Under the pieces are notes generated by a model. It saw nothing but the letters and a program-made list of their open reading frames with translations, was not told the origin of the DNA and did no database searches. Positions 2,285 through 35,796 of a DNA stretch of 40,295 bases are shown one piece after another. The number at the start of each line of letters is the position of its first letter. The stretch's first letter is position 1. Source of the DNA: an uncultured Pseudomonadales bacterium. Its GTDB lineage: Bacteria > Pseudomonadota > Gammaproteobacteria > Pseudomonadales > Balneatricaceae. Where the stretch lies: contig CALKFY010000050.1 in NCBI GenBank assembly GCA_938084925.1, positions 1-40,295 on the forward strand. The letters run 5' to 3'. The position numbers and the translations under genes are program-made.

Positions 2285-2707
2285 ATGAATGCTGCCGTCG
2301 ATCAGTTTCTTAAAGAAGCCCAAATTCCAGCCTCTGCTCTGAGTGACAGAGTCATATACATTCAGACAGTACGCGAAGGCCTGCCTGGCTATACGGTAAA
2401 GGCTGGCAGCAAACTAATTGGTCGTAGTTTGTTCATCCGTTTATTTGATACTAACTCGGCTAACCTGAGTCGTTTTTATAGCAAGAAACACCTCAACCGT
2501 CATGACTCAGAAGAAGTATTAGATACCTTTCGCGTGACCGCAGAGGCAATACGTATATGGGGAGATAAAGACACAGCCCTAGAATGGTTAAACATGCCAA
2601 TACCAGCATTGGCCGGTGACAAGCCTGTAGACCTATTTGACACCTTTGACGGCCGTCGCTGGGTTAGTGAAGTGCTACACAAAATAGAATTTGGGGAATT
2701 CAGTTAA
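2285..2707 (+). CDS. Antitoxin of an Xre/MbcA-RES toxin-antitoxin system (DUF2384)
   Basis: 140-residue antitoxin. The C-terminal 45 residues form the Xre/MbcA/ParS toxin-binding domain (DUF2384), recognisable by WLNMPIPALAGDKPVDLFDT followed by GRRWVSEVLHKIEFG. The N-terminal part (about residues 10-95) is the helical DNA-binding region of this family. Its stop codon overlaps the start of the next gene by one base (TAATG), so antitoxin and toxin are translationally coupled, with the antitoxin first as is usual. It should neutralise the RES toxin by covering its active site and should repress its own promoter. Inverted repeats immediately upstream are suitable operators. Confidence 0.9.
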   Translation: MNAAVDQFLKEAQIPASALSDRVIYIQTVREGLPGYTVKAGSKLIGRSLFIRLFDTNSANLSRFYSKKHLNRHDSEEVLDTFRVTAEAIRIWGDKDTALEWLNMPIPALAGDKPVDLFDTFDGRRWVSEVLHKIEFGEFS

Positions 2708-3183
2708 TGCAGTTGTACCGCATCTGCCCACAAGCTTACCTACAGGACTTTAGTGGACTTGGAGCTAGCTACAAGGACGGAGCTAGGTGGAATTCAGCTG
2801 GTTTACCCGTGTTATATTTTGCATTGTCGCCAGCAACGGCCTTACTAGAAATGGCCAACTACATCCCTTCACCGCGACTAGTACCCCCGTCATACCGGAT
2901 GGGCATTTATGAGCTACCTGAACAGGTAAAGCTAGATCAATTAAGTAGCAAGCAACTACCAGACGATTGGGCTCAGTACCCCTACCCCAAATCTACACAA
3001 ATACTGGGTGATCAATGGTTAAATGCTGGTGAAGCATTAGGTTTACTAGTACCCAGTACAGCCGTTTCCGCAGGCCTAGAGCAAATTGTGCTCATTAACC
3101 CACGCCACCTACAAATTAATCAACTTCAACTTACGGACAGCATAAAAGAGCTGTATAACAAACGCTCCTTTATGGGAATGTAA
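2707..3183 (+). CDS. RES-domain toxin (NAD+-degrading)
   Basis: 158-residue RES-domain toxin. The three residues that give the domain its name are present: R27 in the GARWNS motif, E48 in TALLEMA, and S117 in LVPSTAV. RES toxins bind NAD+ and destroy it (MbcT acts as a phosphorylase), stopping growth. The length matches the family and the domain fills the whole protein, so the toxin looks intact. It overlaps the antitoxin stop by one base. The next gene is convergent, so the pair forms a self-contained two-gene unit. Its position among ordinary metabolic genes suggests a horizontally acquired module, but I see no flanking repeats or change of codon usage that would prove it. Confidence 0.9.
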   Translation: MQLYRICPQAYLQDFSGLGASYKDGARWNSAGLPVLYFALSPATALLEMANYIPSPRLVPPSYRMGIYELPEQVKLDQLSSKQLPDDWAQYPYPKSTQILGDQWLNAGEALGLLVPSTAVSAGLEQIVLINPRHLQINQLQLTDSIKELYNKRSFMGM

Positions 3184-9188: not shown

Positions 9189-9965
9189 ATGACACAAGCC
9201 GACGACTACTTGTTAATTGAAGAACACGGGCAATGGATCGAACTCACCCTTAATCGACCTGATAGTTTTAACGCCCTTTCCGAGGGCATGCTACACGCCC
9301 TGCAGCACGCTATCCATGACATCACCCTGCGTGACGATCTAAGTTGCGTCATTATCAAAGCCAAGGGCAGAGCTTTTTGTGCCGGGCATGATTTGAAAGA
9401 AATGCGCGCTAACGTCAACGACAAGTACTATCACCAACTATTCCATCAGTGCAGCATGTTTATGCAGAGCATCATTGAACTGCCAATACCCGTGATTGCC
9501 GAAGTACAAGGAGTCGCCACAGCCGCCGGATGCCAGCTCGTTGCCACCTGTGACCTTGCCGTTGCCTCCAGCAAGGCACGCTTTGCTGTGTCTGGCATTA
9601 ACCTTGGTTTGTTCTGCTCCACCCCAGCGGTAGCATTGAGTCGTAATATGAGCAAGAAACATGCCTTAGAGATGCTGTTAACAGGTGAATTTATCAGTGC
9701 CGAAGAAGCCCAGCAAAAAGGCTTAATCAACCGCATCGCTGCTCCTGAAGAATTAACGGATGCTAGCCGCAACTTGGCAGCGACCATATGTAACAAATTA
9801 CCCGTAGCGGTAAAAACAGGCAAGGCTATGTTTTACCCACAGCTAGCAAAGCCGATCAACGAGGCTTATGACCTGGCTACTGATTACATGGTTAACAACC
9901 TTATGGACGATAACACTCAGGCCGCCATTGCCGCCTTTACTGAAAAGAAAAAACCCCAAAGCTAA
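9189..9965 (+). CDS. Crotonase-superfamily protein, ECHDC3-like
   Basis: 258-residue enoyl-CoA hydratase/isomerase-fold protein. The oxyanion-hole segments are present: FCAGHDLKE at 63-71 and GVATAAGCQL near 108-117. It closely resembles mammalian ECHDC3 and its bacterial relatives, including the GLFCSTPAVAL segment near 140-150. The two glutamates that catalyse hydration in classical enoyl-CoA hydratase are missing: Q116 stands at the first position and G136 at the second. It is therefore unlikely to be an ordinary beta-oxidation hydratase, although it probably still binds a CoA ester. No other beta-oxidation genes are nearby. The last codons (KKKPQS) lie inside a transcription terminator of the opposite strand. 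Confidence 0.8.
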   Translation: MTQADDYLLIEEHGQWIELTLNRPDSFNALSEGMLHALQHAIHDITLRDDLSCVIIKAKGRAFCAGHDLKEMRANVNDKYYHQLFHQCSMFMQSIIELPIPVIAEVQGVATAAGCQLVATCDLAVASSKARFAVSGINLGLFCSTPAVALSRNMSKKHALEMLLTGEFISAEEAQQKGLINRIAAPEELTDASRNLAATICNKLPVAVKTGKAMFYPQLAKPINEAYDLATDYMVNNLMDDNTQAAIAAFTEKKKPQS

Positions 9966-10337: not shown

Positions 10338-10366
10338 TTGACACTTCGTATACCAAAGATTAAATT
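10338..10366 (+). promoter_or_regulatory. Sigma70 promoter of the P450 cluster
   Basis: A consensus -35 box TTGACA (10338-10343), a 17-base spacer, and a -10 box TAAATT (10361-10366, 4 of 6). An A/T-rich tract just upstream of the -35 could act as an UP element. The start site would fall near 10373, inside the palindrome at 10364-10383, giving a leader of about 36 bases. Confidence 0.7.
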
Positions 10367-10383
10367 GTTCGGCACCGAACGAT
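10364..10383. promoter_or_regulatory. Operator-like palindrome over the P450 start site
   Basis: ATTGTTCGG-CA-CCGAACGAT: two 9-base arms with 8 of 9 complementary positions and a two-base centre. It overlaps the end of the -10 box and the predicted start site, the position expected of a repressor site. The MarR-family protein encoded at 14695-15192 is one candidate, but no similar site is seen in front of its own gene. Confidence 0.6.
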
Positions 10384-10408
10384 AATACTAACACACGGTC
10401 ATCCTCCT

Positions 10409-11665
10409 ATGAATCAAGATGCTTATGCTGATTTAACCAGCCACGATACCTTTACCAAAGGTTTCCCAGCGGCCACTTTTAAACGCCTGCGCGATGAAGA
10501 CCCCTGTGCTTGGATCGAAGAAACCGACGGCGGCAAGGGCTTTTGGGCTATCACTCGTTACGAAGATATCAAAGAGCTCAACCGCAAGCCGCACATCTTT
10601 AGTTCTGCTAAGGGTATTCGTTTAGAAGAACAGTCCGAAGAAGAATACTTGGCGCGCCGTACGTTTCAGGAGACAGATCCACCAGAACACACGCGCCAAC
10701 GCATGATTTTACACCGCGCCTTTTCCCACAAGATGATCGCCAAATACGAAGACCTAGTACGTGAACTAGCATGCGATGTTTGTGATACGGCATTGCAAGG
10801 CAATCAAGTTGACGTGGTAAAGGAAATTGCCCGTAAACTGCCAATGCGTATGCTAGGTCGCGTGCTAGGCACACCGGACGAAGACGGCGAATGGTTGGTA
10901 GACAAAGGCGACGAACTGATTGCTAACTCGGACCCGGAGTTCACCGATCATGTCATCGACCAAGTAGATACGGACGAATACCGTTTAATGCCCTTTCGCT
11001 CCCCTGCTGGTAAAGACATTTACGATTACGCTAAAAAGCAAATGGTAGAACGCCTGCATACCAAAATGGACGACGTACTGTCTTTGTTGTTGGAGCCTAA
11101 CAAGGACGGCGACGTACTAAGCGAACTAGAATTTAAGAATTTCTTTGCTCTAGCCGTTGCCGCAGGCAACGACACCACGCGTTATAGCCTAGCTATGTCC
11201 ATGTATCACCTGTCCAACCAGCCAGAGCTAATCAACCAGCTTAAAGGCAAGGCCGACGACGACCCAATTTGGGATACCGCTGTGGAAGAATTTATCCGCT
11301 ACGCTGCACCAACCCTACACTTCCGTCGTACGGCTTTAGAAGACTACAAATTGCACGGCAAAACCATCAAAGCTGGTGACAAGGTTGTGCTTTGGTTTAC
11401 CTCTGGTAACTTCGATGAACGTCAATTCGAGACCCCAGAAAATATCAACATAACCCGCTCGCCAAACCAACATATGGCCTTTGGCCAAGGTGGTCCTCAC
11501 GCCTGCTTGGGTATGTGGCTAGCACGTTTAGAAGTAAAAGTGACGTTGCAAGAATTGCTAAGACGCGTAGACACAATGGAGCAAGCAGCGCCAGAAAAGT
11601 ACCTGCGTTCCAACTTTATTCGCGGCATAAAATCACTTGTGGTACGCTTCGATAAAGCTGCCTAA
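10409..11665 (+). CDS. Cytochrome P450 (bacterial class I type)
   Basis: 418-residue soluble P450. The heme-ligating cysteine is C366 in AFGQGGPHACLG, the K-helix ExxR is E294-R297 (EEFIR), the I-helix oxygen-activation motif is AGNDTTR at 252-258, and the C-helix region has DPPEHTRQR at 90-98. The heme-loop Phe is eight residues before the Cys, one more than in the textbook motif; the same spacing is found in CYP125-type enzymes, which also share the GN(D/E)TTR I-helix. It uses a ferredoxin and reductase, and both are encoded downstream. Followed after 35 bases by a glutamine-synthetase-like gene, which points to an amine-containing substrate. The leader lacks a Shine-Dalgarno sequence and instead has CATCCTCCT right before the ATG. 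Confidence 0.92.
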   Translation: MNQDAYADLTSHDTFTKGFPAATFKRLRDEDPCAWIEETDGGKGFWAITRYEDIKELNRKPHIFSSAKGIRLEEQSEEEYLARRTFQETDPPEHTRQRMILHRAFSHKMIAKYEDLVRELACDVCDTALQGNQVDVVKEIARKLPMRMLGRVLGTPDEDGEWLVDKGDELIANSDPEFTDHVIDQVDTDEYRLMPFRSPAGKDIYDYAKKQMVERLHTKMDDVLSLLLEPNKDGDVLSELEFKNFFALAVAAGNDTTRYSLAMSMYHLSNQPELINQLKGKADDDPIWDTAVEEFIRYAAPTLHFRRTALEDYKLHGKTIKAGDKVVLWFTSGNFDERQFETPENINITRSPNQHMAFGQGGPHACLGMWLARLEVKVTLQELLRRVDTMEQAAPEKYLRSNFIRGIKSLVVRFDKAA

Positions 11666-11700
11666 TTGTTTAAAAATAATAGTAATAAGAGAGTAACACA

Positions 11701-12999
11701 ATGACTGACTTTCGACGTATCCGCACCATCTATGCAGACCATCTGGGTCTAGCCCGTGGTAAATATCAACCTGCGGCTACGGCAGCTGGTGGCGAAGCCC
11801 GTTTTTGCCAAACCGCCTATGGTTTGACCTTTGACCGCGACTTACTGCCTGTAGAAGGTAGCGGTTTGCTAACCGGCTTACCGGATATGGTTGGCCACTT
11901 TAAAGCTAGTGATGTGCGTGCTGGATGGGAAGCTGATACAGGCATTGCCATTGTTGACCTTACCGACGGCAAGGGCAACCCTATTGCCGTTAACGGCCGT
12001 AATGCTCTCAAGCGTGCCCTAGCTGCTTACGCTGAATTGGGTCTTACGGTAAACGTTGGTGTAGAACTAGAAGCCTTTGTCTTTGAAAGAGACGAAGACG
12101 GCAAATGGGTACCTTATGACACCCCTGGAGCCTACGTATATGGCGCAGGTGTAGGTGTAGATCCAGCAGGCCTTATTGACCAAGTATGGAACCAAGCCGA
12201 AGCCATGGGTATTGAGCTTGAATCCTTCAATTCCGAATTTGACTGCTCTCAGTTTGAAATGACTTTGCGTTATGGCGAAGCCATGGCGGCCATTGATGAC
12301 TTGTTGCTATTCAAGACTATGGCCAAGGAAATCTATGCCGAAAACGGTTACCTATTGAGCTTTATGCCCAAGCCAATTAGTGACCGTGGCGGTAGCGGTT
12401 TGCATATCAACTTTAGCTTTAACGACTCTGATGGCAACAACGTTATCAACGACACTAGTGCCGAAGATGGCTTGTCCAAGCTATGCAAGCAAGCCATTGC
12501 TGGTTTGATTCAACACCACGAAGGCCTAGCCGGTATCATGGCACCAACGGTCAATTCCTACCGTCGTTTGCAACCTGCCAGTCTTTCCGGTTACTGGGCC
12601 AACTGGGGTTACGACCACCGTGGTGTTACTACTCGTATCCCTGATGAACGTGGCAAAGCCGCACGTATTGAATTCCGCATGGGTGACTGTGCTGTCAACG
12701 TTTATACGGCGACTGCGGCAACCCTGCAAGCCGCCTTACTAGGTATACAAAATGACTATGACTTGCCAGCTGCCGAAGAACTCGATTGCCTTGAGTCACA
12801 AAGCACCGAGCGTCACACACCCGATGACCTAGGCGCCGCAATGCAAGCTTTAATGGCTGACACTGTGTTAACGCAGGCTATTGGCCAAGAATTAGTGGAT
12901 AACCATGTTGGAATTAAAACGCAAGAATGGGAAAACTACCTGGCCTTTATAAGCCAAACTTCACAATGGGAAACGGATTTCTACCTGAATTTTGTATAA
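11701..12999 (+). CDS. Glutamine synthetase-like gamma-glutamyl-amine ligase
   Basis: 432-residue glutamine-synthetase-fold ligase. Metal and substrate residues typical of the family are visible: E122 and E124 (VELEAF), E179/E186 (SEFDCSQFE), H235 (GSGLHINFSF), and the glutamate/ATP-binding PTVNSYRRLQP (283-292) and ARIEFRMGD (321-329) segments. The ammonium-site motif DGSS of true glutamine synthetases is absent; the equivalent region reads YGLTFDRDLLPVEGSG. This argues for an amine rather than ammonia as co-substrate, as in IpuC, PuuA or gamma-glutamylanilide synthetase. The N-terminal beta-grasp domain is short. Y353 lies in NDYDLPAAEE, resembling the adenylylation site of enteric GlnA. 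An AAGAGAG ribosome-binding site precedes the ATG. It is co-transcribed with the P450 and followed by a terminator-like repeat. Confidence 0.82.
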   Translation: MTDFRRIRTIYADHLGLARGKYQPAATAAGGEARFCQTAYGLTFDRDLLPVEGSGLLTGLPDMVGHFKASDVRAGWEADTGIAIVDLTDGKGNPIAVNGRNALKRALAAYAELGLTVNVGVELEAFVFERDEDGKWVPYDTPGAYVYGAGVGVDPAGLIDQVWNQAEAMGIELESFNSEFDCSQFEMTLRYGEAMAAIDDLLLFKTMAKEIYAENGYLLSFMPKPISDRGGSGLHINFSFNDSDGNNVINDTSAEDGLSKLCKQAIAGLIQHHEGLAGIMAPTVNSYRRLQPASLSGYWANWGYDHRGVTTRIPDERGKAARIEFRMGDCAVNVYTATAATLQAALLGIQNDYDLPAAEELDCLESQSTERHTPDDLGAAMQALMADTVLTQAIGQELVDNHVGIKTQEWENYLAFISQTSQWETDFYLNFV

Positions 13000-13013
13000 T
13001 CGCGTAAAAACTA

Positions 13014-13041
13014 TTGACCCAGATGGGGCATTCTTTACAAT
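13014..13041 (+). promoter_or_regulatory. Sigma70 promoter of the ferredoxin gene
   Basis: TTGACC (13014-13019), a 16-base spacer and TACAAT (13036-13041): each box matches consensus at 5 of 6 positions. The start site would lie near 13048, about 30 bases before the ferredoxin ATG. The promoter overlaps the inverted repeat at 13021-13056. Confidence 0.55.
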
Positions 13042-13056
13042 CACCCCATCTTTTTA
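13021..13056 (+). terminator. Terminator-like hairpin after the ligase gene
   Basis: Perfect arms AGATGGGG (13021-13028) and CCCCATCT (13044-13051) around a 15-base loop, followed by TTTTT. It lies 21 bases after the ligase stop and overlaps the ferredoxin promoter, so it could act both as terminator and as an operator-like element. Confidence 0.6.
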
Positions 13057-13077
13057 AAACTGTTTCTGGAAATTAAC

Positions 13078-13392
13078 ATGACACAAGTTACTTTTACTCA
13101 AGCTGATGGTTCTCAAGTATCAGTTGAAGCTAACAACGGCGAACACCTAATGAAGCTTGCCTTAGACAATGGCGTAGAAGGAATCACTGGTGCCTGCGGT
13201 GGTTCTTGCATGTGTGCAACCTGCCACGTTACTGTTGATAGCGTTACTGGTGAACTAGCTGGCCCAGGTGAAATGGAAGCCGAAATCCTAGATATGGAAG
13301 TGGACGAACCACAAGAAACTAGCCGTTTATGCTGCCAAGTATTTGTATCTAGCGACATCGATTCTATCAATGTCACTGTACAAGAAGGTTAA
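13078..13392 (+). CDS. [2Fe-2S] ferredoxin, adrenodoxin/putidaredoxin type
   Basis: 104-residue electron carrier. Cluster ligands follow the adrenodoxin pattern C-x5-C-x2-C...C: C40, C46, C49 (GACGGSCMCATCH) and C85 (SRLCCQV). Two additional cysteines, C44 and C84, sit next to ligands. The central acidic segment GEMEAEILDMEVDEPQETSR is the usual docking surface for reductase and P450. It delivers electrons one at a time to the P450 from the reductase encoded next. The gene is bounded by its own promoter upstream and a strong terminator downstream, so it may be expressed at a different level from its partners. Confidence 0.93.
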   Translation: MTQVTFTQADGSQVSVEANNGEHLMKLALDNGVEGITGACGGSCMCATCHVTVDSVTGELAGPGEMEAEILDMEVDEPQETSRLCCQVFVSSDIDSINVTVQEG

Positions 13393-13414
13393 ACTAGAGC
13401 CTAAGTTACAAACT

Positions 13415-13440
13415 AAAAGGCCTCATGCGAGGCCTTTTTT
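13415..13440 (+). terminator. Rho-independent terminator after the ferredoxin gene
   Basis: Perfect 10-base stem AAAAGGCCTC / GAGGCCTTTT with the four-base loop ATGC, running into a T-tract. Strong by eye. It separates the ferredoxin from the reductase gene that begins 38 bases later, so the reductase depends on readthrough or on a promoter I cannot identify. Confidence 0.85.
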
Positions 13441-13477
13441 AATGACACAAATCTAAATAAGATCAAAGGAAGCAAAC

Positions 13478-14698
13478 GTGACAGGTATAGTAATCATAGG
13501 AGCCGGACACGCTGGCGTAAACGTCGCCGCTAGTCTACGCAAACAAGATGCTGATCTAGCCATTACTATACTATCTGCTGAGGACCAAATCCCCTACCAC
13601 CGTCCTCCTTTATCTAAAAAGGCTGTATTTGACGAAGCCCTACCCATTGAACTGTTACAAGCAAATGGCTATTACGAAAAAGCCAATATCGATTTGCGCC
13701 TAAGTACACCAGTGACAAGCATCGATACAGCAGGTCAAACCGTCACTTTAGAAGATGGTACTCAGCTACCTTATGCACAGCTGGTTATTGCTACTGGTAC
13801 CACACTACGCGCCATGCCTGCTCCTGGTGGTGAATTGGCGCAAGGTGTTTACACTTATGCGGATATTCAATATCTAGGCCCACGTATTCAAGCAGCTAAC
13901 AAGATAGCTGTGATTGGTGGTGGCTTTATTGGTTGTGAAGTAGCTGCAGGAGCCTTAAAAATGGGTAAGCAAGTAAGCTTACTCATCACCGGCCCACGCG
14001 CTTTGCGCAAGGCTGTGGCTCCCATTCTTGGTGAAACAGTGACCAAGCTGCACCGTGAAAATGGGATGGATGTACGTACCGGCTGCCGCGTGCAAGAAAT
14101 CACCCCTCAAGGCGTTTCTACAGACCAAGGTTTTGTCGAAGCTGATGTCGTTATTACTGGTATTGGTGCCGACGCCAATATGCAGCTTGCCCAAGATGCG
14201 GGTTTACATACCCAACACGGCATCCTAGTTAATGAATTTGGTCACACCAGTGCCGCCCACGTCTATGCTGTTGGCGACGTTGCTGAATTCCCCTATGGCT
14301 TTGGCGACAACAAGACAACACTGCGCCTTGAGTCTATTCAAAATGCTACCGACCAAGGTGCCATTGTGGCTGCCAACATTGTTGCCGAACGCCAGCAACA
14401 AGAAGCCAAGGCTTACACCCCAACACCTTGGTTCTGGTCGGATCAGGGTGATTTAAAACTACAGATGGCTGGTCTTGGTAGCTTAGATGCAGAGCATAAG
14501 GTGCTACCTGGCAATACAGAAACAACCTTAACCGTGGTACACCTACAAGACGGTGAAATGATTGCCGTGGATACCTTAAATGTACCTGGCAACCACCTTG
14601 CTGGTAGAAAGCTGCTAGAAATGAAAAAGCCCATTACCTGGGCTATGATCGAAGATTGCGATTTTGATTTGAAAAAGCTATTTAAGCAGTTGCGCTAG
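13478..14698 (+). CDS. NAD(P)H-dependent ferredoxin reductase (putidaredoxin reductase type)
   Basis: 406-residue FAD flavoprotein with a GTG start preceded by AAAGGAAG. The N-terminal FAD Rossmann motif is GAGHAG (8-13) and the NAD(P)H motif is GGGFIG (147-152). IPYHRPPLSK (38-47) and the FAD-binding VYAVGDVAEF segment in the C-terminal half are typical of the CamA/rubredoxin-reductase group. The C-terminal domain with TPWFWSDQGDLKLQMAG belongs to the same family. It passes electrons from NAD(P)H to the upstream ferredoxin and thence to the P450. Its stop codon shares the bases CTAG with the stop codon of the convergent MarR gene. Confidence 0.92.
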   Translation: MTGIVIIGAGHAGVNVAASLRKQDADLAITILSAEDQIPYHRPPLSKKAVFDEALPIELLQANGYYEKANIDLRLSTPVTSIDTAGQTVTLEDGTQLPYAQLVIATGTTLRAMPAPGGELAQGVYTYADIQYLGPRIQAANKIAVIGGGFIGCEVAAGALKMGKQVSLLITGPRALRKAVAPILGETVTKLHRENGMDVRTGCRVQEITPQGVSTDQGFVEADVVITGIGADANMQLAQDAGLHTQHGILVNEFGHTSAAHVYAVGDVAEFPYGFGDNKTTLRLESIQNATDQGAIVAANIVAERQQQEAKAYTPTPWFWSDQGDLKLQMAGLGSLDAEHKVLPGNTETTLTVVHLQDGEMIAVDTLNVPGNHLAGRKLLEMKKPITWAMIEDCDFDLKKLFKQLR

Positions 14699-15192
14699 CT
14701 TTTACTAACAGTAGCCAAAATTACACGCAACATATCCTTAGTGGTATCTAGATCTTGTTCTGACAAGGCCGATACGGCTTCATCTTCAATGGTATGGAAC
14801 AAAGGATAGATCTTTTGCATTAAGGCTTGGCCTTCCGGCGTTGCCGAGGCCACCACACGGCGCTTGTCATCCGCATGGGGCTGACGCTGGCAGTAGCCGC
14901 CCCGCTCCAAAGTTTTCAAAATTCCCGTTAGGGTACTTTTGGCCACACCGGTTTCTTGAGCTAGCTTATTGGTTTCCAAAGGTCCCCATACCCAAAGTAC
15001 CCACAAGGCGGTAAAACCACTAAATGACAAGCCATAATCTTGCAACAATTGGGTTTCGGCACGATTACGAATTAGGTTACTAATACGAAAGATGTTAGAC
15101 ACGACAGAGGCCGATTTGCCATAAATGCCACGTTCTTGTAGATGGGCTTTGGCGTCGGCTTCGGCGCCTGTAGCAGTGGTCTGTTTAATCAT
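14695..15192 (-). CDS. MarR-family transcriptional regulator
   Basis: 165-residue winged-helix regulator. The helix-turn-helix is TNKLAQETGVAKSTLTGILKTL (about 74-95 in the numbering from the first of two ATGs) and the wing is QPHADDKRRVVASATPEG. The second ATG is preferred because GGAG lies five bases before it and only two before the first. MarR proteins typically sense aromatic or other small ligands and release DNA on binding. The gene lies tail-to-tail with the ferredoxin reductase gene, so it is a reasonable candidate regulator of the P450 cluster, but this is inference from position only. C101 (GGYCQRQ) in the wing region could be redox-sensitive. Confidence 0.88.
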   Translation of the reverse strand: MIKQTTATGAEADAKAHLQERGIYGKSASVVSNIFRISNLIRNRAETQLLQDYGLSFSGFTALWVLWVWGPLETNKLAQETGVAKSTLTGILKTLERGGYCQRQPHADDKRRVVASATPEGQALMQKIYPLFHTIEDEAVSALSEQDLDTTKDMLRVILATVSKS

Positions 15193-15278
15193 CATGTCTC
15201 CTACGAATCTACAACTAGCGTGCTTCTTGCCTGCTGTGCTATTGATGTACTATTCTACCTTGTTTTCGACGCTTTCCA

Positions 15279-15310: not shown

Positions 15311-15934
15311 ATGTCTATAAATGCCCTTCAGAACATAATCAATTTCATCCTCGAAATCGACAAGCTTAAGGCAGTTATTCGCAAGACTCGACCCAAGGAC
15401 TTGGGCCGTTATGAAAATTCGGCAGAGCATTCTTGGCAGGTGGCCTTAGCGGCCTTAATGCTGCAAGAATATGCCGGCCAGCCGGTGGACGTAAATCGCG
15501 TGCTGCGCATGCTGTTAATCCATGATTTGGGAGAAATAGACGCTGGCGATGTGATTGTGTATGCGGCTAACAATGATCCTCAGCATCATGCCAAAGAACG
15601 TGCAGGTGTAGTCCGTATTTTCGCCATGTTGCCAGATAATATGGGGCACGAGTATCTAGAACTATGGGATGAGTTTGAAGCCGCTGCTTCACCAGAGGCC
15701 AAGTTTGCCAAGGCTTTGGACCGTGCCCTACCGCTACTTCATAATCTCAACGATGGTGGTCATAGTTGGCGTAAAAACGGTATTCACAAATATCAGGTCG
15801 AAGCGGTTAGTAAGCCCAAAATCACTAGCGGTTGCCCGCAGTTATGGGAACTTATTGAGCCTATTTTAGAGCAGGCAGACAAGGATGGTTGGTTTGATCA
15901 CAATTTGGGGTCTGACCCCAAAGTGCCAGGTTGA
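15311..15934 (+). CDS. HD-domain phosphohydrolase (YfbR/HDDC2-like nucleotidase)
   Basis: 207-residue metal-dependent phosphohydrolase. HD-domain ligands are visible: H40 (ENSAEHSWQ), the His-Asp pair at about 71-72 (LLIHDLGE) and the distal Asp near 137 (AKALDRALPLLHN). The D-x-E region LGEIDAGDVIVYA is typical of the COG1896 group, whose members (YfbR, HDDC2) dephosphorylate deoxynucleoside monophosphates. That activity would feed the nucleoside catabolic operon encoded convergently next door; this link is inference. The last ten or so residues (GSDPKVPG) are encoded by a palindromic repeat sequence rather than by conserved domain sequence, which suggests that the original stop codon was displaced. 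Confidence 0.82.
   Translation: MSINALQNIINFILEIDKLKAVIRKTRPKDLGRYENSAEHSWQVALAALMLQEYAGQPVDVNRVLRMLLIHDLGEIDAGDVIVYAANNDPQHHAKERAGVVRIFAMLPDNMGHEYLELWDEFEAAASPEAKFAKALDRALPLLHNLNDGGHSWRKNGIHKYQVEAVSKPKITSGCPQLWELIEPILEQADKDGWFDHNLGSDPKVPG
15907..15919. repeat. GGGGTC-T-GACCCC palindrome
   Basis: Perfect 6-base arms around one base, at the very 3' end of the HD-domain gene. The motif resembles REP-like palindromes common in gammaproteobacterial genomes; only this copy is seen in the window. Confidence 0.5.
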
Positions 15935-25024: not shown

Positions 25025-27394
25025 CTATTCGCCATAAGGTGCCCAAACATTCTTCACTTGAGTGGCTTGGCGTAAGAACTCTTGCCCTTCACCTTGCCTA
25101 TTGCATAGCCAATCTCGGTCATATTCATCATGACACCAGGTTGGTTTCAAATCTTCAGCGCTAACAAATTCCACTTGTTTCACGGTACTAGCATCGGCCC
25201 AGCACCAGAAACCATCTATTTCTGCATGGCCTGCCATATGCTTAGCTAGGTCTTGCCGTGGTCCGGTGATAATATTCACCACACCAGCTGGAACATCCGA
25301 GGTTTCTAAAACTTGAATTAGATCCAGTGCTAAATTGCCAAAGCGTTCGCTCGGTACCAATACCACGCGGTTGCCCATGGCCAGCGCAGGACCTAACAAG
25401 CTTATTAGGCTCAATAGAGGTTGTTGTTCTGGCGCCACAATAGCAAGTACGCCCTTAGGCTCTGGTAATGCCATGGTAACGCCCCTAAAGGGCGCATCAT
25501 GCACTTGGCCATCATACTTATCAGCCCATGCCGCATAGGTAAACAAACGCTCTAAACTGGCGCTAAATTCAGCTTCCGCTTGAGCAGCAGTTTGGCCTGT
25601 CATATCTTGTAATCTGGCCACCCACTCAGATTCTCTTAGGGCAAAATTCTCAGCCATATAATAAAGTATCTGTGCACGTAGATGCCCTGTACTACCTGAC
25701 CACGCACTAGCTTTAACCGCCGCTGCCACAGCATTGCGGACATCTTTGCGGCTGCCAATACCGATCCAATCTGCCACTTCACCGTGGGCATTATAGATAG
25801 CTGCACTGTGGCCTGAATCAGGACGTACCTGCTTACCAGAAATATAGAATTTTTGTGTACGATCAATACCTAGATCAGTGTCAGAAGCGACGCTTTTAAC
25901 AGCAACTTTTGGTAAGGCTGTTTGGGCCTGCAAGCCAGCTGGCTTGAGGTATTCGTACAAACCCTCTTTACCGCCTTCACGACCGTAACCGGATTCCTTT
26001 ACGCCACCAAAACCACAGGCGGCATCAAACTGATTATGAGCATTAATCCACACCACACCAGCACGTAACTTTGGCGCTACGTCGAGAGCACGGTTAATAT
26101 TTTCACTCCATACACTGGCCGCTAAACCATAAACACTGTTGTTGGCCATCGCCACAGCTTCACCTTGGGTGCGGAAACTCATGGCTACTAATACAGGGCC
26201 AAAAATTTCGTCTTGTGCCAAAGGATGGCTTTGCTCGACATCGGTAATCAAACTAGGTGGGTAATAGTTACTGTCAGCATTAGGTTGTGCACATTGATAT
26301 AAATCACCACCCTCTTCTAGGCCACTGGCCACCATGCTGCTAACACGTTGAAATTGGGTTTTACTAACCATAGCACCCACATCAATGGACTTATCCAGAG
26401 GATTACCATGGTTAAGGTTTTGCATGCGTTGCTTAAGCTTTTTCAACAAAGCTTGTTCAACGTTGGCTTGTACTAATAAGCGAGAGCCGGCACAGCAAAC
26501 TTCACCCTGATTAAACCAGATAGCATCCACGATACCTTCTACGGCGGCATCTAGGTCAGCATCTTCAAAGACGATAAAAGCTGATTTACCACCTAGCTCC
26601 AAAGACAGTTTCTTACCTTGGCCGGCAGTAGCTTGACGGATAGCCTTACCCACGGGGGTAGAACCCGTAAAGGCGACCTTATCGATGTCTTCGTGAGCGG
26701 CTAATAAAGCGCCAGTATTACCAGCCCCATTAACAATATTAACCACACCAGCTGGCACACCAGCCTGTTCGCATAAATGCGCGAATAGCATGGCCGTTAG
26801 CGGTGTTTGCTCAGCAGGTTTAAGTACTAGAGTGTTGCCCATAGCCAATGCTGGAGCAATTTTCCAAGCCAGCATCAATAATGGAAAATTCCAAGGGATG
26901 ATTTGCCCTACTACGCCAACCGGTTGGTATGCAGTAAATTCTTGCTCTTGTAACTTAGCCCAACCAGCATGATGATAAAAATGGCGTATTGCTTGCGGCA
27001 CATCTGCATCGCGAGATTCGCGAATAGGCTTGCCGTTATCGAGAGTTTCTAGCACGGCAAACAAGCGCGCATGCTTCTGCAAGCCTCTGGCTAGTGCATA
27101 AAGCACTTTAGCTCGTCCCATACCGCCTATGGCTTGCCATCCGGCTAAAGCATTTCTTGCGGCAGCAACAGCTGTATCAACGGTATTACTATCGGCCAGC
27201 TCAATGGTAGCCAAGTTAGCATCTGAAGCAGGATTGGTCACAGCCATTGTTTCAGCATGGCAATCTGCGAGCCACTCACCGTTGATAAAATGACCAAAGT
27301 GAGCGTTTTGTTGGGCCAGCCAGGCTTCGGCTTCGGCAGCACTTTCTAGGGCACTGCTATAGTCTAAATTTTGAAATTCTTGCATAAGTGTCAT
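25025..27394 (-). CDS. Two-domain aldehyde dehydrogenase (ALDH16-like)
   Basis: 789-residue protein with a complete ALDH domain (about 30-490) and a partial second ALDH domain (about 505-789). In the first, the catalytic cysteine is C300 (NQGEVCCAGSR), the general base is E266 (LSLELGGKS), and the NAD-binding segments PWNFPLL (167-173) and FTGSTPVGK are intact. The second retains cofactor-domain features (VAPEQQPLLSL, GPALAMGNRVVLVPSE) but stops before any catalytic cysteine region, so it is a pseudo-domain. That layout is the hallmark of ALDH16. Placed directly after deoC with a six-base gap, it most likely oxidises the acetaldehyde released by DeoC to acetate. Other aldehydes are possible. 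Confidence 0.88.
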   Translation of the reverse strand: MTLMQEFQNLDYSSALESAAEAEAWLAQQNAHFGHFINGEWLADCHAETMAVTNPASDANLATIELADSNTVDTAVAAARNALAGWQAIGGMGRAKVLYALARGLQKHARLFAVLETLDNGKPIRESRDADVPQAIRHFYHHAGWAKLQEQEFTAYQPVGVVGQIIPWNFPLLMLAWKIAPALAMGNTLVLKPAEQTPLTAMLFAHLCEQAGVPAGVVNIVNGAGNTGALLAAHEDIDKVAFTGSTPVGKAIRQATAGQGKKLSLELGGKSAFIVFEDADLDAAVEGIVDAIWFNQGEVCCAGSRLLVQANVEQALLKKLKQRMQNLNHGNPLDKSIDVGAMVSKTQFQRVSSMVASGLEEGGDLYQCAQPNADSNYYPPSLITDVEQSHPLAQDEIFGPVLVAMSFRTQGEAVAMANNSVYGLAASVWSENINRALDVAPKLRAGVVWINAHNQFDAACGFGGVKESGYGREGGKEGLYEYLKPAGLQAQTALPKVAVKSVASDTDLGIDRTQKFYISGKQVRPDSGHSAAIYNAHGEVADWIGIGSRKDVRNAVAAAVKASAWSGSTGHLRAQILYYMAENFALRESEWVARLQDMTGQTAAQAEAEFSASLERLFTYAAWADKYDGQVHDAPFRGVTMALPEPKGVLAIVAPEQQPLLSLISLLGPALAMGNRVVLVPSERFGNLALDLIQVLETSDVPAGVVNIITGPRQDLAKHMAGHAEIDGFWCWADASTVKQVEFVSAEDLKPTWCHDEYDRDWLCNRQGEGQEFLRQATQVKNVWAPYGE

Positions 27395-31031: not shown

Positions 31032-31559
31032 GTGAAAGATAAAAGCATACAACCAATAGACCATGAAAAGGTCATGCGTGAAGACGATTTCATCGTTTCC
31101 AAGACTGACCCAAAAGGACGCATTACATACGGCAACCGCATTTTCTTTGAATTTGCTGGTTACACTGAGGAAGAGATTCTTGGCGTACAACACAACGTTA
31201 TTCGCCATCCCGACATGCCACGCTGCGTATTCAACCTATTGTGGGTTCGCATTAATGCCGGCGAAGAAATTTTTGCGTATGTAAAGAACATGAGTAGAGA
31301 CGGCAGTTACTACTGGGTTTACGCCAATGTAACGGCCAGCCTAGACATCAATGGTAACATCGTTGGCTTCTACTCGGTACGTCGTAAACCAAGTGCTGCC
31401 GCCATGGAAATTATCCCGTCTGTATATGCAGCCCTGCTTGCTGAAGAACAGAAGCACCCTGCTAAAGACCAGATTGCTGCAGGCACTGCTGCACTGGAAG
31501 CCAAATTAAATGAATTGGGAGTTAGCTATGACCAGCTCGTCTACCAGCTCCAAGGTTAA
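31032..31559 (+). CDS. Aer-like PAS-domain sensor protein (CetB-like), copy 1
   Basis: 175-residue single-PAS protein with a GTG start. It strongly resembles the FAD-binding PAS domain of E. coli Aer: residues 58-63 read RHPDMP, the FAD-contact motif, followed by [16 protein letters not shown] (Aer: KNRRKNGDHYWVRANA). The C-terminal 50 residues form a helical linker. It has no membrane segment or kinase domain. The following chemoreceptor gene starts inside its last codons (32-base overlap). In Campylobacter, CetB (PAS) signals through a separate transducer CetA, and the same division of labour is likely here: this protein senses redox or respiratory state by FAD and passes it to the receptor. 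Confidence 0.88.
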
Positions 31560-33267
31560 TTGGCCAAGTATGCTGTTACTTATTACCGTTCTTGCCACTA
31601 TTGCTGCCAGCATTTGGTATCCCAATATTTGGTTACAAGGCGGTTTAGCGGTTATCGCCCTTATTGCCTTTGCCATGCAGCAACAAGACCAACAGCGTCA
31701 GCAAAAAATGCTGAGCAAAATTAAAAACTTTACTCACGATGTAGTGAATGGCGATATTGAAAGCCGTATCACTAACATTGGTGAAATTGATGAACTAGGC
31801 GAAATAGCCTGGAACTTCAACGAAGCGATGGACCAAGTTGAAACGGTAATGCGCGAATGTAATGCCTTTGCCTTGAAAGTTCAGCAAGGCAACTATGAGC
31901 GTAAAGCGCTACCTAATGGTTTGCGCGGCATGTTCCCGAGAACGTTAGATAACATTAACGCCAGCCTAGAAAGCATGACTGACACCATGCATAGCCTAGA
32001 AGACGTTATGGCTAAAGTTGGCCGTGGTGACTTTGCTGGCCGCATGAATCCAGAAAGAGATGGTGCCATTGCTAACACCGTCAACCAAGCTGTTATCCAA
32101 GTGAATGACATGTTTATAGATATCGGCGAAGTTATGCAAACCGTCGCTCAAGGTGACTTTAGCCAACGTGTTACTGCTTCGGGCGAAGGCCAATTAGAAG
32201 TCCTTAAGAGTAATATAAATGCCAGCGTCGAAGCAATTGAATCAGCGATTGACGAAACCGCGCAAGTTGCTGAAGCCATGGCGAACGGCGATGTTACCCA
32301 CCGTATCAATGGTAACCATGCAGGCCGACTAAACGATCTTAAGTCTTCGTTGAACCGTTCCCTTGAACGTTTGCAAGATACCCTTGCCAACATCATGACC
32401 AACGCCAACCTTGTTGGTACCGGTGCTCGTGAAATTAGCCAAGGTAGTTTGCAGCTATCAGAACGCACCAATGAGCAAGCGGCAAGCCTGGAGGAAACAG
32501 CAGCTAGTATGAACGAAATGGCTTCTACTGTTGAAGCCAACGCCTCCAACGCCACACAAGCTGATACTCTAGTACAAGATAGCCGCATAAAGGCTGAACA
32601 GAGTGTAGCCGTTGTGCAGACCGCTGTTACCGCGATGGATCAAATTAGTGAGTCCAGCCAAAAGATCGCCGACATCATCACCTTGATTGATGGCATTGCC
32701 TTCCAGACTAACCTATTGGCACTGAACGCGTCTGTTGAAGCGGCCCGTGCTGGTGAACATGGCCGTGGCTTTGCGGTAGTGGCCGGTGAGGTACGCACCC
32801 TAGCCCAACGAGCTGCAGAAGCAGCCAAAGACATTCGTGGCCTTATCGAGGCTAGTAACACGCGTGTTAATGAAGGTAGCCAACTGGTTAACCAGTCTGG
32901 TGAAGCTCTACACGAAATATTTAAATCCATTGCAGCCGTAAGTGATTTGGTTGGCCAGATTAGCCACGCCTCTCGTGAACAAGCCAATAGCATTGGCCAG
33001 GTAAACGAAGCCGTTACACAATTGGATAGTGTTAACCAGCAAAATGCGGCTTTGGTAGAAGAATCTACCGCGGCTAGTGATGCCTTGAATAACCAAGCTC
33101 AAGATTTGCGTGAACAAATCTCCTATTTCAAGGTGCAGGACGCTCAAATGACTACTACCTATGCGATTGAACAGAGCATGCCAGCAGCACCGGCTAAGCA
33201 TGAAAACAGCAAGCGTCACGTTCCTGCCCCAGTTGATAGTGATATAGGAGATTGGGCCGAGTTCTAG
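31528..33267 (+). CDS. Methyl-accepting chemotaxis protein (CetA-like), copy 1
   Basis: 579-residue chemoreceptor. Two hydrophobic segments joined by a very short loop (PNIWLQ) lie within the first 50 residues, so there is no periplasmic sensing domain. Then come several HAMP-like repeats marked by GD(F/V)..R, and a full MCP signalling domain with the hairpin tip [40 protein letters not shown] in outline. The C-terminus is DWAEF, matching the xWxxF CheR-docking pentapeptide. The ATG at 31528 has GGGAG six bases upstream and matches the start of copy 2; an ATG six codons earlier exists. It probably transduces signals from the overlapping PAS protein to CheA. Confidence 0.9.
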
Positions 33268-33298
33268 CCTGGTAGAGAGCAATTAACTGATAGTAATC

Positions 33299-33328
33299 AA
33301 AGCGATTTATAATAAATCGCTTTTTTTG
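33299..33328 (+). terminator. Rho-independent terminator after receptor copy 1
   Basis: Perfect 11-base stem AAAGCGATTTA / TAAATCGCTTT with a three-base loop and a T-tract. It separates the two receptor gene pairs. Confidence 0.85.
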
Positions 33329-33365
33329 TGCCTAATTCCTTTAATAAAAAATGCAATCACTATTC

Positions 33366-33394
33366 TTGATAATCTTAGCAGAACCTAATATATT
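33366..33394 (+). promoter_or_regulatory. Sigma70 promoter of receptor pair 2
   Basis: TTGATA (33366-33371), 17-base spacer, TATATT (33389-33394), each 5 of 6. The leader would be about 140 bases and contains a perfect 7-base inverted repeat TACCCAC / GTGGGTA (33425-33453). Pair 2 is thus transcribed separately from pair 1. Confidence 0.65.
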
Positions 33395-33542
33395 AGACTC
33401 AGGTAAGATGCTTTAAACTTACACTACCCACTAAACAATTATTAATGTGGGTAAATTGGCGTTAATACTGAGTATACGGTAGGCGCTCCGCTATTGAGAA
33501 ACGCAGTAACAAAGCAAGCTAATTAGCAAGCAGGATAACATT

Positions 33543-34070
33543 GTGAAAGATAAAACCATTGTCCCCACAGACAAAGAATTGGTCATGCGCGAAACGGATT
33601 TTATTGTTTCCAAAACAGACACCAAAGGCCGACTCACGTACGGCAATCGCATTTTCAACGAGTTTGCAGGCCTTCGAGAAGAAGAGCTACTAGGCAAACA
33701 ACACAACATCATTCGCCACCCAGACATGCCACGCGCGGTGTTCAACCTCCTGTGGCAACGCATTCAAAATGGTGAAGAAATTTTCGCTTATGTTAAAAAC
33801 ATGAGCGCCGATGGTAGTTACTATTGGGTATACGCTAACGTTACAGCCAGCCTTGACACCAATGGTCAAATCATTGGTTATTACTCTGTACGTCGCAAAC
33901 CAAGCGCTAAAGCTATGCAAGTCATCCCCGGCTTGTACGGTGCTCTACGCGCCGAAGAAAACCGTGTACCAGCAAAAGATCAAATTGCTGCCGGTACAAA
34001 ATTATTACAAGATAAGCTAGCCGAATTGGGAGCCACTTATGATCAGTTTGTTTACCAACTCCAGGGTTAA
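33543..34070 (+). CDS. Aer-like PAS-domain sensor protein (CetB-like), copy 2
   Basis: 175-residue paralog of the protein encoded at 31032-31559, identical in length and also starting with GTG ([20 protein letters not shown]). The FAD-contact motif RHPDMP is at the same positions 58-63, and [17 protein letters not shown] follows. Differences cluster in the helix after the N-cap ([11 protein letters not shown] instead of [11 protein letters not shown]) and in the C-terminal linker, which could set partner specificity. The next receptor gene again overlaps by 32 bases. Role: PAS-based redox or energy sensing for the adjacent receptor. Confidence 0.88.
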
Positions 34071-35796
34071 TACACTCGTTGGTGTTGCCGGTCTAAGTAT
34101 AGTCGGTTCTTTTGCCGCTACTATTTGGTACCCAGACCTATATCTACAGGGTGCCCTTGCAGTGGCTGCCTTACTCTGTCTATTTGCTGTATTAAAGGCC
34201 AATAGCCGTGCTAACTATGTACTTGGTAAAGTCAAATCCTTTACCGAAGATGTAGTAGAAGGCAAGCTAGAAGGCCGTATCACCAACATTGGTGCCGAAG
34301 ACGACTTAGGCCAAATTGCCTGGAATTTCAACGAAGCCTTAGACCAAATGGAAACCGTATTACGTGAAGCCAACGCTTTTGCCCAAAAAGTAAAAGAAGG
34401 TGATTACGAACGTAAGGCACTACCTGCCGGTTTACGTGGTATGTTCCCAGTGACCCTAGAAAACATCAACGCCAGTCTTGATGCCATGACAGGCACTATG
34501 CATTCCTTAGAAGATGTGATGGGCAAAGTTGGCAAAGGTGACTTTACCGGCCGCATGAATCCAGATCACGATGGCGCTATTGCCACTACCGTTAACGGTG
34601 CCGTAGAACGCGTAAGCACTATGTTTGTAGACGTTGGTCAGGTAATGCAAACCGTAGCCCAAGGTGACTTTAGCAAGCGCGTTACTGCACAAGGTGAAGG
34701 TGATCTAGAGCTCCTCAAGAACAATATCAACGACAGCCTTAGCGCTATCGGTTCTGCCCTAGAAGAAACCAGTAATGTTGCTGAAGCCATGTCGCAAGGT
34801 GACGTTACCCTGCGTATTAATGGCAACCACCCAGGTCGCTTGGGCGAACTTAAGAACGCGTTAAATACTTCTTTAGACCGCATGCAAGACACGCTATCTA
34901 ACATTCTTAGCAATGCTAACTTGGTAAGTACTGGTGCCCGTGAAATTAGCCAAGGTAGCTTACAGCTATCCGAGCGCACTAACGAGCAGGCAGCTAGCCT
35001 AGAAGAAACCGCAGCTAGCATGAATGAAATGGCCTCTACCGTAGAAGCCAATGCCAGTAACGCCATCCAAGCAGACTCTCTAGTTACCACTAGTCGTAGC
35101 AAGGCCGAAGAAAGTGTTCGCGTGGTACAGACTGCTGTAGAAGCAATGGAACAGATTAACGCATCTAGCCAAAAGATTGCTGATATCATTACCTTAATTG
35201 ATGGCATTGCTTTCCAGACTAACTTGCTAGCTTTGAACGCTTCTGTAGAAGCGGCCCGCGCCGGTGAACATGGTCGTGGTTTTGCCGTTGTAGCCGGCGA
35301 GGTACGAACACTAGCCCAACGCGCTGCGGAATCTTCGAAAGAGATTCGCGTATTGATTGAAGCTAGTAACAGCCGTGTTAACGAAGGTAGCCAATTGGTT
35401 AACCAATCTGGTGACGCCTTGCATGAGATCTTTAAGTCTATCGAATCCATTGCCGAGCTGGTTGGCCAGATTAGTCATGCTTCTCGCGAACAGGCTAATA
35501 GTATTACGCAAGTAAACGAAGCCGTTACCCAGCTTGATAGCGTGAACCAACAAAACGCGGCCTTAGTTGAAGAGTCTACTGCGGCCAGTGACGCTTTGAA
35601 CAACCAAGCCCAAGATCTGCGTGAAGAAATCTCCTTCTTCAAAGTTAACGATGGCAACGGTCTCACCTCGCAAAGCACCTACGCCATTGAGCCAAGCCGT
35701 GGTGCCATGCCTACCGCACCAGCACGTCATGCAAGCAGCAAAGCTCACGTTGCAGCCCCAGTTGATGAGGACATGGGTGATTGGGCCGAATTCTAA
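34039..35796 (+). CDS. Methyl-accepting chemotaxis protein (CetA-like), copy 2
   Basis: 585-residue paralog of receptor copy 1. Transmembrane segments lie at about 13-30 and 37-52 with a six-residue loop. Five HAMP-like units follow, marked by EGK75, EGD121, KGD167, QGD209 and QGD254, at a period of 42-46 residues. The MCP signalling domain covers about 290-540, with its tip near 382-430 ([21 protein letters not shown]). The last five residues are DWAEF, a CheR-docking pentapeptide. The start overlaps the PAS gene and has GGGAG upstream. Near-identity with copy 1 in the signalling domain shows a tandem duplication; the N-terminal membrane part has diverged most. Confidence 0.92.

Follow-up and report, generated by a model that had tools for sequence, protein, structure and literature searches.

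What does a cytochrome P450 do next to a ligase of the glutamine synthetase (GS) fold in a marine bacterium? The question is raised by a stretch of 40,295 nucleotides (the window; contig CALKFY010000050.1, assembly GCA_938084925.1) from an uncultured Pseudomonadales bacterium, in which genes for a P450, a GS-fold ligase, a [2Fe-2S] ferredoxin, a BphA4/CamA-like reductase and a convergent MarR regulator span positions 10409-15195. We consider it probable that this cassette is an inducible amine-oxidation module, which glutamylates, hydroxylates and deglutamylates its substrate in the manner of the Ipu pathway, and which belongs to a lineage separate from that of IpuC. An initial annotation, made from the sequence alone, had already proposed the gene set. 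All five genes are intact open reading frames, and the set is refined here by two hairpins within it. The genes are:

10409-11665, plus strand: cytochrome P450, 418 amino acids, CYP125-like fold, extended F-G loop (172-198) with PFRSP
11701-12999, plus strand: GS-fold amine ligase, 432 amino acids, predicted gamma-glutamylamide synthetase
13078-13392, plus strand: adrenodoxin-type [2Fe-2S] ferredoxin, 104 amino acids
13478-14698, plus strand: FAD/NAD(P) ferredoxin reductase, BphA4/CamA-like, 406 amino acids, GTG start
14695-15195, minus strand: MarR-family regulator, convergent, overlapping the reductase gene by 4 bp

The Pfam assignments are p450 (91 bits), Gln-synt_C (270 bits), Fer2 (37 bits), Pyr_redox_2 with Reductase_C (194 and 75 bits, both in the reductase) and MarR (50 bits). 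The ferredoxin cysteines (Cys40-x5-Cys46-x2-Cys49, then Cys85/Cys86) have adrenodoxin-like spacing. With a P450, a [2Fe-2S] ferredoxin and an FAD reductase, the cassette has the composition of a class I P450 system.

The ligase is predicted to be a gamma-glutamylamide synthetase, with an amine rather than ammonium as the acceptor. In E. coli GlnA numbering, the ammonium-site residues are replaced (D50 by C, S53 by A, Y179 by V, E327 by L), and the metal, ATP and glutamate residues E129, E131, E212, E220, H269, E357, R321, R339, R344 and R359 are retained. PuuA, GMAS, IpuC and DcaQ have the same pattern of kept substrate and metal sites and a lost ammonium site. The predicted structure matches GS and GmaS folds over nearly its full length (Z 36-43), so that fold, kept residues and lost ammonium site all agree with those of the known gamma-glutamylamide synthetases (GoaS: PuuA, GMAS, IpuC, DcaQ and NpaA1). 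True GlnA identity was considered and rejected: the GlnA model TIGR00653 gives 204 bits at a cut-off of 429, the ammonium site is lost, and the tree splits the protein from E. coli GlnA and from the GlnA of its own genome at 100/100. The active-site residues and this separation bear out the view of the initial annotation that the protein is an amine ligase and not GlnA. Its clade, in which the Thioglobus-type loci are the sister of the window member, also excludes IpuC, PuuA, GMAS and DcaQ, DcaQ and GMAS being long branches of unsure placement. The genome encodes at least five GS-fold proteins in all.

The association of ligase and P450 is not a peculiarity of the window. A search restricted to one genome per species yielded 298 relatives. 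The analysis took in the 80 best of them and, in addition, plasmid loci of Novosphingobium, Ruegeria and Streptomyces. In 78 of 86 loci a P450 gene directly adjoins the GS gene, for the most part on its upstream side, and in 67 of these 78 the two genes follow each other in the order P450-GS on one strand, with a median gap of 32 bp. The gap in the window is 35 bp, which indicates tight coupling. The adjacency is far beyond chance. Pairwise GS and P450 distances correlate over 71 pairs with r = 0.92, a value that partly reflects shared organismal history and that none of 2000 permutations reached. The pair is found in Gamma-, Alpha- and Betaproteobacteria, SAR324, Actinomycetota and Acidobacteriota. 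Ferredoxins of the window's family occur near it in 33 loci and the MarR regulator in 28, and the nearest relatives share ferredoxin, reductase and MarR with the window cassette. Viral contigs gave one distant match, without a P450. The pairing is thus conserved well beyond the genus, as had been anticipated. The idea of an independent gammaproteobacterial assembly has to be given up, because the pair, with the other three genes in the nearest relatives, is common to several phyla and classes, and the window holds one member of a wide group.

The P450 carries the expected motifs (AGNDTT at 252, the ExxR motif as EFIR at 294, FGQGGPHACLG at 358). Its best matches in sequence and structure are CYP125, CYP124 and CYP268, with about 41% identity to a reconstructed ancestral CYP125 and 32% to CYP125 of M. 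tuberculosis. Homology alone would suggest a sterol hydroxylase, since CYP125 and CYP124 are the nearest solved relatives. However, the window P450 and other P450s that accompany a GS form a single clade (SH-aLRT 90), which is separate from CYP125. In these proteins the F-G loop is about 10-12 residues longer and contains PFxSP or PFxHP. In the model of the window P450 (pLDDT 89.6), the loop runs between helices 157-171 and 199-217. The separate clade and the insert argue against a sterol hydroxylase; a CYP125-type sterol C26-hydroxylase would fall in the CYP125 clade and lack the insert, and the window P450 does neither. The initial annotation had named a P450 family with an unrelated substrate such as sterols as evidence against its amine hypothesis. 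This concern holds for the nearest solved relatives and is only partly answered by the separate, insert-bearing clade.

Among 27 related P450s from 369 gammaproteobacterial genomes, three have the insert, and all three have a GS or glutamine amidotransferase (GATase) neighbour; of the 24 that lack it, none has either gene within about 1.5 kb. The count was compiled by hand, and one insert-bearing row (L147) is absent from the final P450 tree. The ligase partners of the insert-bearing clade come from three GS branches, namely the window type, the Sagittula type and the type found in Mesorhizobium and in a second module described below. In P450s the F-G loop lies over the substrate channel, and it is a fair inference that the insert helps to hold the glutamyl part of the substrate.

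Within the genus, the cassette is present in two of 15 members, the window genome and a sister genome (an Oceanospirillaceae metagenome-assembled genome, MAG), with identical gene order and identical neighbours. The flanking genes are:

9189-9965, plus strand: enoyl-CoA hydratase, left flank
15311-15934, plus strand: HD-domain phosphohydrolase, right flank, conserved in the genus

Window-type P450 and GS are both missing from the other 13 members, and in five of these (G002, G010, G011, G012 and G013) the genes for the enoyl-CoA hydratase and the HD protein are immediate neighbours. The five-gene unit is therefore gained or lost as a whole. GC content, overall and at third codon positions, does not clearly differ between cassette and flanks, and hence there is no compositional sign of recent transfer.

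Four further features bear on expression:

10338-10366, plus strand: sigma-70-like promoter, TTGACA, 17 nt, TAAATT (10 of 12 matches)
10367-10380, no strand assigned: perfect palindrome GTTCGGCACCGAAC, candidate MarR operator, 3' of the -10 element of the P450 promoter
13022-13055, plus strand: terminator-like hairpin GATGGGG/CCCCATC followed by a T tail, in the GS-ferredoxin intergenic gap, found by eye
13415-13440, plus strand: terminator-like hairpin AAAAGGCCTC/GAGGCCTTTT followed by a T tail, in the ferredoxin-reductase intergenic gap, found by eye

Promoter-like matches are not enriched in the region over shuffled sequence. The linked MarR regulator may use the palindrome as its operator. 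The sequence recurs letter for letter upstream of the P450 in the sister genome; in a SAR324 locus (L027), GTTCAGTACTGAAC lies inside the P450 promoter, and Thioglobus clusters carry GTTCGTATACGAAC upstream of the dioxygenase. With up to two mismatches allowed it has one match in the whole window, where shuffles yield 0.8 at the same laxity. An automated scan of the region did not report the two hairpins. Given their position after the GS and ferredoxin genes, the four forward genes may not share a single uniform transcript, and the electron-carrier genes may be partly transcribed separately. Single-strand folding of the MarR region gave no unusual structure.

The neighbours of the pair in other bacteria hint at the substrate. 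Among 85 loci, an aldehyde dehydrogenase (ALDH) is found in 68, a GATase of one of two types in 50, an HpaD-like dioxygenase in 49, an FAH protein of HpaG type in 42 and an ADC/MppR-like protein in 37. This set of neighbours occurs from Acidimicrobiia to Thioglobus. In 10 relatives the pair has PuuD-like genes close by, and uptake-type transporters (TTT, TonB, APC) are near many; occasional neighbours are TTT transporters, a sulfatase, a class III aminotransferase and a QhpR-type amine-operon regulator (358 bits at a cut-off of 250 in Novosphingobium clusters). The dioxygenase of the relatives scores 131.7 bits with the HpaD model, below the cut-off of 316, and is thus a divergent relative. 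The homoprotocatechuate-like ring-cleavage partners in most relatives favour an aromatic amine as the substrate, with a product that would be opened by meta cleavage; we put this forward tentatively.

A true homoprotocatechuate route is encoded elsewhere in the window genome, with HpaD (477 bits, contig C95), HpaE (727 bits), HpaH (392 bits) and HpaR (154 bits) all above their cut-offs. The latter three, together with an HpaI-like protein and another GS-like ligase, are on contig C32. This further ligase is close to the P450-linked ligase of Sagittula, and its cluster (L117:5107-14786) holds HpaC-like, HpaR, HpaF-like, HpaE, HpaG-like, HpaH, HpaI-like, M81-type and acyl-CoA-dehydrogenase-like proteins. 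Several Limnohabitans loci (L066, L080, L084, L087 and L089) have the order GATase-P450-GS-ferredoxin-ALDH-class III aminotransferase-UPF0261-HAD, with malonyl-CoA decarboxylase further along in several of them, which suggests an aliphatic amine there.

The data establish the gene content, the conserved pairing, the changes in the ligase active site, the fixed site of the cassette and the insert in the P450; from these we infer gamma-glutamylation, an order of steps and an aromatic substrate. The ligase would join the amine to the gamma-carboxyl group of glutamate at the expense of ATP, as its fold, its kept glutamate, ATP and metal residues and its lost ammonium site suggest. Judging by the protein families and their co-inheritance, electrons from NAD(P)H would pass through the reductase and the ferredoxin to the P450. 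The P450 would then hydroxylate the gamma-glutamyl amide rather than the free amine, in line with the Ipu precedent and with the F-G insert common to a clade of glutamylation-associated P450s. If hydroxylation took place at the carbon next to the nitrogen, the product would collapse to an aldehyde and glutamine. Alternatively, a class-I amidotransferase encoded elsewhere might free the product, which in most relatives would feed a homoprotocatechuate-like ring-cleavage route. MarR would use the palindrome to keep the P450 promoter repressed, and binding of the amine or a derivative would end the repression. A bolder version of this scheme is speculative and in our view rather doubtful. It holds that the PFxSP insert evolved in this P450 clade for the recognition of gamma-glutamylated amines, that the clade cooperates with ligases of three or more GS branches, and that, joined by HpaD-, HpaG- and HpaE-like enzymes, it provides a hitherto undescribed route by which aromatic amines reach meta cleavage, widespread among marine and freshwater bacteria.

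Several observations weigh against the proposed glutamylation module. The nearest solved P450s are sterol or terpenoid hydroxylases (CYP125 with Z 50 and 41% identity; CYP124). The Ipu P450 lacks the F-G insert, which is thus not required for glutamylated substrates generally, and the association between insert and GS may rest on few evolutionary events, because the insert-bearing P450s form one clade. Beside the pair in the window there is neither a GATase nor a ring-cleavage gene, and no GATase was found anywhere in the window. No ADC/MppR-like partner turned up in the window genome, a MAG that is 87% complete, and five genomes of the genus gave no match at E 1e-4 in a search without a positive control. 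Finally, Limnohabitans and rhodobacterial (Rhodobacterales) clusters lack ring-cleavage genes beside the pair, so that the amine may differ between clades.

Some of these points feed rival explanations. The P450 might be one of the CYP125/CYP124 steroid or terpenoid hydroxylases, and the GS might have an amine side chain as its target or be unrelated. The top matches in sequence and structure (CYP125/CYP124/CYP268) are as this would predict, but co-divergence and adjacency with the GS, the separate clade with its insert, and the amine- and aromatic-type neighbours make it improbable. Equally improbable, in our opinion, is detoxification or biosynthesis with a hydroxylated gamma-glutamyl conjugate as the end product. 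Detoxification is often under MarR regulators, and no catabolic gene adjoins the cassette in the window; ALDH genes in 68 of the 85 loci and the uptake-type transporters near many of them speak for catabolism instead. Alternatively, the P450 could take a free secondary or cyclic amine as its substrate at the outset and open the ring by alpha-hydroxylation; the GS would then only assimilate the nitrogen set free, or glutamylate an intermediate formed later. The mycobacterial pip/mor and Gulosibacter pipA loci likewise combine P450, ferredoxin and GS (PMC9477822). Yet simple nitrogen assimilation is unlikely for a ligase that lacks the ammonium site, and the ring-cleavage partners in most relatives are of aromatic type, so that this order of events is unlikely, if somewhat less so than the two previous proposals. 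We assign a similarly low probability to a special case of the proposed glutamylation module, in which an arylamine is glutamylated, hydroxylated next to the nitrogen and hydrolysed to a 2-aminophenol, which the HpaD-like class III dioxygenase opens. The cluster dioxygenase also matches 2-aminophenol 1,6-dioxygenases (E 1e-8), the cluster ALDH matches 2-aminomuconate semialdehyde dehydrogenases, and the window GS has Leu in place of E327, as does DcaQ, an aniline-type ligase. However, homoprotocatechuate dioxygenase is the better dioxygenase match (7e-23), the FAH partners are HpaG-like, and the dioxygenase is missing from the window.

Related modules occur elsewhere in the two cassette-bearing genomes. 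The sister genome has a second P450-GS-GATase module (G014 contig C64, L119:7648-13533) with a fused FNR/2Fe-2S reductase, an ALDH and a luciferase-like (LLM) monooxygenase, and the window genome has its reductase-P450-GATase part on a short contig (G000 contig C141, L116). A Puu-type polyamine cluster of the window genome (G000 contig C27, L122:7023-13528) encodes two PuuA-like ligases, a PuuD-like hydrolase, a DAO-type oxidase and an aminotransferase. Other parts of the window contain a RES-domain protein of 158 amino acids (2707-3183), from a family that includes NAD-degrading toxins, and a 789-residue protein with two aldehyde dehydrogenase domains (25025-27394), near a BMP-type nucleoside transporter and nucleoside salvage genes. 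Two successive pairs of a PAS protein and a methyl-accepting chemotaxis protein (31032-35796) have PAS proteins that are 77% identical.

A literature search, limited to open-licence papers, found no paper on a P450-GS-ring-cleavage cluster. The occurrence of the pair in Thioglobus-type, SAR324, Acidimicrobiia, Limnohabitans, Novosphingobium and rhodobacterial genomes points to a common aquatic amine that the searched literature has not yet linked to these genes. The GS-P450 pair is a defined two-enzyme set for testing, and the F-G loop motif would allow P450s for glutamylated amines to be picked out of the many CYP125-like annotations.

To our knowledge, the isopropylamine pathway is the only one in which a P450 is known to act on an amine that carries a glutamyl tag. 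In the Ipu scheme, IpuC converts the amine to the gamma-glutamyl amide, a P450 system hydroxylates it and an amidotransferase releases the product (PMC6776027). The analogy to gamma-glutamylation pathways drawn by the initial annotation is apt: in Paenarthrobacter aurescens TC1, ipuC is clustered with genes for an SDR, a GATase, a P450 and a ferredoxin, and the Ipu systems of this strain and of Pseudomonas KIE171 cluster a GS-fold amine ligase, P450, ferredoxin, reductase and IpuF-type GATase. The window cassette shares the P450 system in the cluster, but has no cluster GATase, and its ligase (27% identity) lies in another GS branch than IpuC; the P450s are 30% identical. The 7.3 kb of the TC1 cluster that were examined contain no ring-cleavage genes.

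In the aniline, chloroaniline and 1-naphthylamine systems (AtdA, Dca/Tdn, Npa), a GS-like ligase and a GATase accompany an oxygenase that acts on the gamma-glutamylated amine (PMC11335346). That oxygenase is a Rieske dioxygenase, whereas the window has a P450, and the DcaQ-type ligase forms its own long branch apart from the window clade. Overexpressed glutamine synthetase genes adjoin cyclic-amine-type P450s (PMC9477822). By description, which is the basis of our comparison, the mycobacterial pip/mor loci (CYP151, ferredoxin, GS homologue) resemble the cassette in gene content and in an amine substrate, but the substrate is a cyclic secondary amine, and the role of the GS there is unproven. 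The Puu putrescine pathway shares the logic of gamma-glutamylation, oxidation, ALDH and PuuD-type hydrolysis; however, PuuB is a flavin oxidase and PuuA falls outside the window GS clade. The CYP125/CYP124 sterol and lipid hydroxylases share the fold of the window P450, which differs from them in its extended PFxSP F-G loop, GS partner and clade. The proposed chemistry is a variant of the Ipu kind and the parts are otherwise ordinary; what is unusual is the wide spread of the pair and its dedicated P450 clade.

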